Origin: Citreicella sp. C3M06
GTDB taxonomy: Bacteria > Pseudomonadota > Alphaproteobacteria > Rhodobacterales > Rhodobacteraceae
DNA length: 64,000 nucleotides
NCBI RefSeq assembly: GCF_018860705.1
Contig: NZ_JAHKQA010000105.1
Span: forward strand, 1 to 64,000
Reading direction: 5' to 3'
How positions within the stretch are numbered: the stretch's first letter is position 1; each line of letters begins with the position of its first letter. Below the pieces are notes generated by a model. It was not told where the DNA came from, ran no database searches, and was given only the letters and a program-made list of their open reading frames with translations. Positions 23,395-25,114 of the stretch are shown piece after piece. Made by a program: the position numbers and the translations under genes.

Positions 23395-24105
23395 ATGCGC
23401 CGCTTCCTGCCGCTGCTCTTTCTCGCTCTTGCGGCCTGCGGGGCCGTTCCGATCGCGACCACGCCGACCGGCAGCGCCCCATCGACCTTGGCAGAGCAGC
23501 GCGCCGAACGGGCGACCCGCCAGTTCATCGACGTTGCCACCACCGTCGAGCCGGTGGTCGAAGACGAATGCCGGCGCAGCACCCGCGGGCTGAACTGCGA
23601 CTTTCTCATCGTTGTCGACGACCGGCCCGCCGCCGAGGCCAATGCCTTTCAAACGCTCGACGATTACGGGCGCCCGATTCTTGCCTTCAATCTTGCGATG
23701 ATCGCCTCGGTGCAGAACCCCGACGAGCTGGCATTTGTCATGAGTCATGAATCGGCGCATCACATCCTCGGGCATCTTGCCCGCGTCGAAGAGGATGCGG
23801 CGGTTGGCGCTATCATCTTTTCCGGCCTTGCCGCCATGTCCGGCGCCGACGATGCGGCGGTGCGCACTGCCGAGGAATTCGGGGCGTCCGTGGGCGCGCG
23901 GACCTTTTCCAAGGAATACGAGCTTCAGGCAGATCAACTGGGCACGATCCTTGCGATCAAGGCCGGGTATGATCCGCTGAAAGGCGCAGCGTTCTTCACC
24001 CGCATCCCCGATCCGGGCGATCGTTTCCTTGGCTCGCACCCGCCCAACGCGGCCCGGATCGAGATCGTCCGCCGCACCGCCGAAACCTACCGCGCCACCA
24101 ACTGA
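23395..24105 (+). CDS. M48 family metalloprotease, predicted lipoprotein
   Basis: A 236-residue protein with a lipoprotein signal (LALAAC, lipidated C15) and the zinc-protease motif HESAHH, giving ligands H118 and H122 with catalytic E119. A downstream E177xxxD (EYELQAD) supplies the third ligand. The C-terminal SHPPNAARI is typical of periplasmic M48 proteins of the BepA/YcaL/LoiP sort, which help outer-membrane quality control. The start at 23395 gives the better lipoprotein signal; an ATG at 23365 is an alternative. No chaperone genes are adjacent. Confidence 0.88.
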   Translation: MRRFLPLLFLALAACGAVPIATTPTGSAPSTLAEQRAERATRQFIDVATTVEPVVEDECRRSTRGLNCDFLIVVDDRPAAEANAFQTLDDYGRPILAFNLAMIASVQNPDELAFVMSHESAHHILGHLARVEEDAAVGAIIFSGLAAMSGADDAAVRTAEEFGASVGARTFSKEYELQADQLGTILAIKAGYDPLKGAAFFTRIPDPGDRFLGSHPPNAARIEIVRRTAETYRATN

Positions 24106-24156: not shown

Positions 24157-24198
24157 TTGACCTGCATCAAAGGCACCGCCTCTCCACCTTGCTAGGAT
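24157..24198 (+). promoter_or_regulatory. FNR-type box and class II promoter for the DUF6455 trio
   Basis: TTGAC-CTGC-ATCAA (24157-24170) matches the FNR consensus TTGAT-N4-ATCAA at 9 of 10 positions. A -10-like hexamer TAGGAT lies at 24193-24198. This puts the box centre at -41.5 from a start at 24205 (an A), the classical class II activator geometry. The first DUF6455 gene starts 38 bases further on. In Rhodobacteraceae such boxes are bound by FnrL or related regulators when oxygen is low. Confidence 0.75.
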
Positions 24199-24242
24199 GT
24201 CGGAACGATCATCCGACATACCCAGCATGGGGGAATGAAGAT

Positions 24243-24500
24243 ATGCCCAGCCCCAATCCGCTTGAGCGTCACGCAAAGCTTGTCGACCACATGGCATCCG
24301 CCTTGGGGGTCGATCTCGAAGAACAGATCTTGCGCGGCAAACTCAACCTTGACGCGATCGAAGACGCGGTGCTCAGCTGCACCAACTGCACCCAGCCCGG
24401 CGCCTGTGAATCATGGCTGGCCGCGCGCACCGATGTTGCCCCCGAAGCCCCGCATTACTGCCGCAACCTGACCCTGTTCGAGGCTTTGCGCGACGCCTGA
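24243..24500 (+). CDS. DUF6455 family protein, paralogue 1
   Basis: An 85-residue cytoplasmic protein with the pattern C-x2-C-x5-C-x2-W-L-x10-P-x2-C in its C-terminal half (CTNCTQPGACESWL, then YC). An N-terminal helix region contains HMASALGVDL. The four cysteines look like a metal, iron-sulfur or redox site, but this is inference; the family has no established function. It is the first of three adjacent paralogues and lies directly behind an FNR-type promoter. Confidence 0.85.
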   Translation: MPSPNPLERHAKLVDHMASALGVDLEEQILRGKLNLDAIEDAVLSCTNCTQPGACESWLAARTDVAPEAPHYCRNLTLFEALRDA

Positions 24501-24530
24501 CAGGGCGCACCGATGGGAGAGGAAACCAAC

Positions 24531-24845
24531 ATGTTCGACACCCCGCCAACCACGAAGGCGCAAGACACGCGCCGCCCTCGGCCACTGGGCGCACGGACCG
24601 ATCATTACTGGCTGGTCCAGCGCATGGCACGCGCCAACGGCACCGATCTTGCCACCGCCAGCAATGACGGCCACCTGACGCAAGAGCAATGGGCAGCGAT
24701 GATCGAACGCTGTCGCGGCTGCGCTTGGGTGCAGGGCTGCCAGCGTTGGCTCGCCCAGCCCGAACAGGCGCTGCGTGACACGCCAGCCAATTGCGGCAAC
24801 CGCGCGCATTTCGCCGACCTGAGGACCAGACTGCAAGCAGAGTGA
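24531..24845 (+). CDS. DUF6455 family protein, paralogue 2
   Basis: A 104-residue protein with an N-terminal extension of about 25 polar residues, the helix QRMARANGTDL, and then the same four-cysteine motif (CRGCAWVQGCQRWL, NC) with spacing identical to paralogue 1. The start at 24531 was chosen for AGAGGAAA at good distance; an in-frame ATG at 24513 is possible. It begins 30 bases after paralogue 1 and is probably co-transcribed from the FNR-type promoter. Identity with the other two copies is low outside the motif, so the duplication is old. Confidence 0.85.
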   Translation: MFDTPPTTKAQDTRRPRPLGARTDHYWLVQRMARANGTDLATASNDGHLTQEQWAAMIERCRGCAWVQGCQRWLAQPEQALRDTPANCGNRAHFADLRTRLQAE

Positions 24846-24850
24846 GACCG

Positions 24851-25114
24851 ATGCCACGTCCCCTTGGAGATCCCGCGCGACATTTCTGGATGACCCGAAG
24901 CGTTGCGCGGGTCATGGGGCTCAGTCTCGCCGAAGAGATGCGCTGCGGCAGGCTCGAGGCCGAGGAATACGCCCGGATGGTCACCAGTTGCCGCGGCTGC
25001 CCCGTCGTGTCCTCGTGCGAAAGCTGGCTGGGCCGTCAGACCTGCATCGCGGCCTCTGCCCCGCAGGGCTGCTGCATCAGCGCAACGCTGGCGCGCCTTC
25101 GCCGACGTCACTGA
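24851..25114 (+). CDS. DUF6455 family protein, paralogue 3
   Basis: An 87-residue protein starting MPRPLGDPARHFWMTR, with RVMGLSL in the helix region and the shared motif CRGCPVVSSCESWL ending in a final GC. Two extra cysteines occur near the last motif cysteine (RQTC and CC), unlike the other copies. It begins 5 bases after the stop of paralogue 2. The N-terminus PRPLGDPARHFW resembles RPLGARTDHYW in paralogue 2, suggesting these two are closest. Confidence 0.85.
   Translation: MPRPLGDPARHFWMTRSVARVMGLSLAEEMRCGRLEAEEYARMVTSCRGCPVVSSCESWLGRQTCIAASAPQGCCISATLARLRRRH

Follow-up and report, generated by a model that had tools for sequence, protein, structure and literature searches.

The window that we analysed, a stretch of 64,000 nucleotides from Citreicella sp. 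C3M06, carries three adjacent genes, here called A, B and C, that encode members of DUF6455 (Pfam PF20056), a family with no assigned function, and that stand behind an FNR-type box positioned as in a class II promoter. We regard the trio as strong candidates for founding a new protein family that works at low oxygen with a metal or iron-sulfur centre. For the reading as a whole, that of an operon of three genes that is induced when oxygen is low and encodes small adaptors with a metal centre, we judge the chances to be about even.

The DUF6455 genes and their putative promoter

The features of the locus are the following:

24157-24170, forward strand: FNR-type box TTGACCTGCATCAA, with the TTGAN6TCAA core that is conserved upstream of DUF6455 relatives
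24193-24198, forward strand: putative -10 element TAGGAT, 22 bases past the box (class II spacing)
24243-24500, forward strand: gene A, DUF6455, 85 amino acids, the core member (Pfam 104.7 bits); ATG start after GGGGGAATGAAGAT
24531-24845, forward strand: gene B, DUF6455, 104 amino acids (Pfam 90.5 bits); start at the ATG at 24531
24851-25114, forward strand: gene C, DUF6455, 87 amino acids (Pfam 64.7 bits)

All three proteins score above the Pfam cut-off for DUF6455 (23.7 bits), in agreement with a preliminary description of this DNA that had named three adjacent genes of the family. In the Pfam search of A, B and C only DUF6455 was significant and a CRP/FNR domain was absent, and NCBIfam models gave no match to any of the three at E 1. 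A search of the whole genome found DUF6455 nowhere else. Counted by eye in the translations, C-x2-C-x5-C-x2-W-L-x10-P-x2-C has the same spacing in A, B and C and is preceded in each by G-x-x-L (GVDL, GTDL and GLSL), both as described earlier. The genes are separated by 30 bases (A-B) and 5 bases (B-C); for gene B, an alternative upstream ATG is possible at 24513. Since an upstream M48-peptidase-like gene on the same strand ends at 24105 and a downstream SDR-like gene on the opposite strand converges on the trio (both names read by eye), A-B-C is probably a complete transcript.

The box and TAGGAT reported before gene A are present at class II spacing, and the centre of the box would lie at about -41.5 relative to a putative start near 24205. 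An inverted repeat, GTCGG-N9-CCGAC, can be seen by eye at 24199-24217; it follows the -10 element immediately and would fall within the 5′ leader. Taken within this window, the box is weak evidence and could be due to chance: the strict box pattern is expected 0.06 times per 64 kb window and was present in 6 of 100 shuffles, and the looser TTGAN6TCAA core is expected 0.49 times and was present in 37 of 100, so that a single site proves little.

In the whole genome, TTGAYN4RTCAA followed 21-23 bases on by TANNNT occurs at four places, and a reversed control pattern at none. Besides the DUF6455 operon, these are a site before a ppk2-like gene (G000:C2:41685-41726, L182), a site that no clear gene follows and a site adjoining a cydA-like gene of opposite orientation. 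The strict pattern has seven sites in the 5.0 Mb genome, that of the DUF6455 operon included; one lies between neighbouring hemN-like and fnrL-like genes, one lies before a ccoG-like gene, two fall within the apparent coding regions of dnaX and proC, and a further two are in other places. Gene names at these boxes (hemN, fnrL, ccoG, ppk2, cydA, dnaX and proC) are readings of the translations.

Conservation of the box and co-occurrence with FnrL

The preliminary description had called for a survey of whether DUF6455 genes follow FNR boxes, and most of those examined do. Two sets were analysed, with an overlap of 11 loci. The first, of 84 genes from 77 genomes, takes in some of the DUF6455 genes in the 89 positive genomes described below as well as genes from other alphaproteobacterial families; it was drawn partly from the best-scoring genes, and 24 genomes, mostly with weaker matches, were added deliberately. 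It excludes L044, L045 and L056, where the cysteine motif is absent, and later members of a run (L002, L003, L046, L049, L065-L069 and L094); L027 was retained for its own box, though L064 heads the same run, as was L079, for which the box found precedes the gene that heads the run. In the 400 bases before the matched domain, a perfect TTGAN6TCAA core was found for 67 of the 84 genes, a core with one mismatch for 8 and none for 9, against a background of 13 perfect cores in the remaining 235 kb (0.02 expected per gene). In the second set, of 78 loci with record titles, the core was perfect in 73, had one mismatch in 5 and was missing from none, with 7 cores in 381 kb elsewhere in the same loci; since most loci within the family share synteny, these locus counts are not independent. 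Divergent members outside the family have the box less often: among the 84 genes, those from the window's family (n = 64) divide into 56 perfect, 6 with one mismatch and 2 with none, and those from other alphaproteobacterial families (n = 20) into 11, 2 and 7. The box is also present before divergent members amid unrelated neighbours, and its conservation across genomes raises it above the chance level. One genome (G214) has two convergent DUF6455-type genes, L042 and L047, with one FNR box each.

The spacing to the putative -10 element is conserved as well. TAnnnT has 49 matches 21-23 bases past the box in 73 loci, versus 4 at the remaining offsets between 8 and 44, and in the 84-gene set it has 24 at 21-23 bases versus 5 at the remaining offsets from 10 to 39 (matches, not loci, being counted). 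This is the geometry of a predicted class II promoter. Among the 78 loci the inner bases of the box vary while the core and the -10 spacing are kept.

A regulator of the matching type is found in the same genomes. Across 149 genomes of the family, 89 have DUF6455 and 132 have a match to FnrL with an E value of 1e-30 or better. All 89 belong to the 132, and none of the 17 genomes without an FnrL match has DUF6455 (Fisher p 4e-8, uncorrected for descent). DUF6455 is present in 82 of the 101 genomes whose best FnrL match has 66% identity or more, and in 7 of the 31 in which it has 39-65%. The other 43 of the 132 FnrL-positive genomes do not have DUF6455, which indicates that its proteins are dispensable to an FNR-type regulon. 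Together, the conserved box and -10 spacing and the co-occurrence with FnrL strongly support the predicted FNR-type class II control that had been proposed for this locus.

NosZ (39 of 89 versus 7 of 60) and PF01136 (28 of 89 versus 7 of 60) are both commoner in genomes with DUF6455 than in those without it. An accessory role in denitrification only is not favoured, because the genome of the window itself has no NosZ match at E 1e-50 and no PF01136 match at E 1e-20.

Outside Rhodobacteraceae DUF6455 is sparse. It scored above the cut-off in 12 of 240 genomes in a sample of the class, own-family genomes included, and in 12 of 249 in a sample of the phylum, all 12 in the same class. Enemella evansiae is not a proteobacterium, and a record under that title (L160) has the DUF6455 locus of a Rhodobacteraceae genome; the title looks wrong. 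In the literature searched, the name DUF6455 occurs in one paper, in a table row of a study of ethylene in Azospirillum, where ethylene raised a DUF6455 transcript of A. brasilense (log2 1.67, adjusted p 0.049), a single, marginal value (PMC11819568).

Cysteines, paralogue groups and architectures

Loss of the cysteines in most homologues, which the preliminary description had named as evidence against its proposal, was not seen. Among the 184 DUF6455 matches of the 78 loci, taken with no cysteine pre-filter, 170 have C-x2-C-x5-C plus a fourth cysteine, and 12 of the remaining 14, all C-type proteins (L128, L133, L137, L140, L147, L162, L164, L167, L168, L169, L171 and L175), have, by eye, C-x4-C-x3-C plus a fourth; the exceptions are L178, without the fourth cysteine, and L181, which is degenerate. 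In the shifted form the middle cysteine has moved and the distance from the first to the third is unchanged. A tryptophan stands two residues past the third cysteine in 94 of 118 domains, and the gap between the third and fourth ranges from 9 to 26, mostly 15 to 18; all three window proteins have 17.

The AlphaFold model of gene A's product, built from 31 sequences, is a confident five-helix structure (mean pLDDT 90.5, pTM 0.79; helices 6-20, 25-30, 36-47, 54-60 and 76-84), in which Cys46 ends helix 3, Cys49 is in the loop, Cys55 starts helix 4 and Cys73 precedes helix 5. A profile search of the PDB gave no significant match, and no known relative was found in limited searches. A four-cysteine metal or Fe-S site in each protein is likely.

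A tree of 119 DUF6455 domains (128 of 134 matches were kept by a four-cysteine pre-filter, and repeat loci were then dropped) has main A, B and C groups with supports of 0.91, 0.89 and 0.87. The 78 loci were retrieved by an A-type query, and their genes were assigned with models trained on 10 three-gene loci; the order is ABC in 43, A in 21, AC in 7, AB in 3, ABCA in 2 and ACA in 2. A, B and C are old paralogues whose order is mostly fixed. A heads all of these loci, though not every locus elsewhere: in L007 a B-group gene precedes A, and G144 begins with a gene (L092) that looks B-like and has a perfect box, with A (L069) next behind a one-mismatch box. In some genomes the box is followed only by a gene of B-like type (L030, L070) or by genes of C-like type (L072-L078), so each type can stand alone. 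Separate, conserved groups in mostly fixed order would fit a heteromeric or division-of-labour set.

Some relatives carry additional N-terminal parts. Five proteins were picked because their N-termini are long. In three of them the N-terminus resembles DUF1127 (19.8, 20.6 and 19.9 bits) but does not reach the DUF1127 cut-off of 23.3, and the other two gave no DUF1127 match; the Pfam search found no such N-terminus in the three window proteins. The DUF1127-like proteins L088 and L051 have a perfect box and L097 has one with one mismatch. By eye, an N-terminal membrane helix seems to be present in L043, which has a box, and in L036, which is without one. An open frame at L037:1-1737 joins a glycosyltransferase-like N-terminal part to a C-terminal DUF6455 domain and has no FNR box within 400 bases of that domain. 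L059 and L060 adjoin a CBS-domain-like gene and a P-type-ATPase-like sequence (by eye), as do low-oxygen gene clusters in rhizobia.

Proposed function and comparison with known systems

We propose that FnrL, replaced in other lineages by a relative of FixK/DNR type, would bind the box at low oxygen and activate transcription; on the conservation of the predicted promoter, this step is very probable. Each protein would then fold into a small bundle of helices and bind a single metal centre through its four cysteines, most probably a [4Fe-4S] cluster; the predicted ligands surround the loop that joins helices 3 and 4 or lie shortly ahead of helix 5. We hold this step to be reasonably likely. Much more tentatively, the loaded proteins may act as small adaptors that adjust low-oxygen physiology by binding RNA or other proteins, with A as the core and B and C as its partners or specialised copies. 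If the cluster were labile to O2 or NO, the result would be a two-step gate, in which the cluster of FnrL permits synthesis and the second cluster permits activity.

The alternative that survives best, although we think it unlikely, is that the trio are Fe-S, heme or metal chaperones that build or protect low-oxygen enzymes (cbb3 oxidase, HemN, Fe-S enzymes), with one client each. The box type is common to the hemN/fnrL-like and ccoG-like genes of the same genome, the paralogue groups have separate identities, and CDGSH or RimO genes lie within about 1.5 kb in some loci: when seven neighbours were sought at up to 1.5 kb from 30 head genes (named by eye, not by family search), CDGSH was found at 5 and RimO at 10, together with an M48-like peptidase at 26, a conserved small gene at 23, DUF167 at 12, SDR at 10 and DUF393 at 6. 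These neighbours are, however, absent near divergent DUF6455 members, which sit in other contexts, so we read them as shared synteny; a conserved partner gene was rejected on the same ground. The FnrL-positive genomes without DUF6455 also argue against a chaperone. The varied neighbours and the DUF1127-like and membrane-helix-like N-termini fit a regulatory adaptor about as well as a chaperone, and we place the adaptor role ahead, by a narrow margin, because the neighbours vary and DUF1127 proteins contact PhoR or RNA.

A structural zinc protein, in which the four cysteines hold zinc and FNR control is unrelated to redox, appears slightly less probable than the chaperones. Four cysteines suit zinc too, and a small helical fold was modelled confidently, but there is a single C-x2-C, and the 12 C-type proteins that have C-x4-C-x3-C instead keep four cysteines without that knuckle, which weakly suggests a cluster over a zinc knuckle; the tie to FNR-type control likewise favours a redox-linked centre. 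A box with no function, arisen by chance or kept simply by descent, is highly improbable, since its lack of significance in this window and the two of seven strict genome sites inside coding regions are outweighed by a core and -10 spacing kept while the inner bases vary, by the low background in the same loci and by its occurrence in unrelated contexts.

The preferred reading, of FNR-controlled adaptors with a metal centre, makes a family without a function testable: it predicts a regulator, a condition and the residues likely to be ligands, and the marine Alphaproteobacteria concerned can be cultured. If the clusters proved labile, oxygen or NO would be sensed at a second level, downstream of FnrL.

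FNR-type regulons are textbook knowledge, and the DUF6455 operon has the same box type, in a putative class II layout, as the FnrL/FNR regulons of Rhodobacter and Dinoroseobacter. The genome of the window likewise has boxes at hemN/fnrL-like, ccoG-like and ppk2-like genes; PPK2 is in the FnrL target table of R. capsulatus (PMC4634722) and hemZ/fnrL in that of R. sphaeroides (PMC2908626). The passages on these regulons do not name DUF6455 (PMC4634722, PMC2908626), and the FnrL tables include unnamed hypothetical genes, for example ID 2905 in a predicted conserved FNR regulon (PMC2908626). DUF1127 small proteins (CcaF1, YjiS) resemble some DUF6455 relatives through the below-cut-off N-termini of the latter; they work by contacting the protein PhoR, and one of them is an RNA binder (PMC12501420).

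The cluster site of FNR and FnrP, like the cysteine set of DUF6455, has three close cysteines and one distant one, whereas the trio is without the CRP/FNR domain in Pfam. E. coli FNR has C-x2-C-x5-C. In FnrP of Paracoccus the ligands are Cys14, 17, 25 and 113 (PMC4771820).

The Wbl proteins of actinomycetes, like the DUF6455 trio, are small and have four cysteines. Three of these are in C-x2-C-x5-C and the fourth precedes the triad, whereas in DUF6455 it follows, and the two belong to different phyla; no relation was seen in the PDB profile search, which gave no significant match, or in Pfam, where DUF6455 alone was significant. The Wbl protein WhiD holds a [4Fe-4S] cluster and has four cysteines (PMC7363131). 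The predicted switch, the paralogue set and the architectures of DUF6455 are described here. As a speculation that we rate as rather improbable, DUF6455 could be an alphaproteobacterial counterpart of Wbl, unrelated in sequence: FNR-controlled small [4Fe-4S] adaptors, in which the old A-B-C set would serve as an O2- or NO-labile second gate and DUF1127-like or membrane-helix N-termini would aim the domain at other partners.
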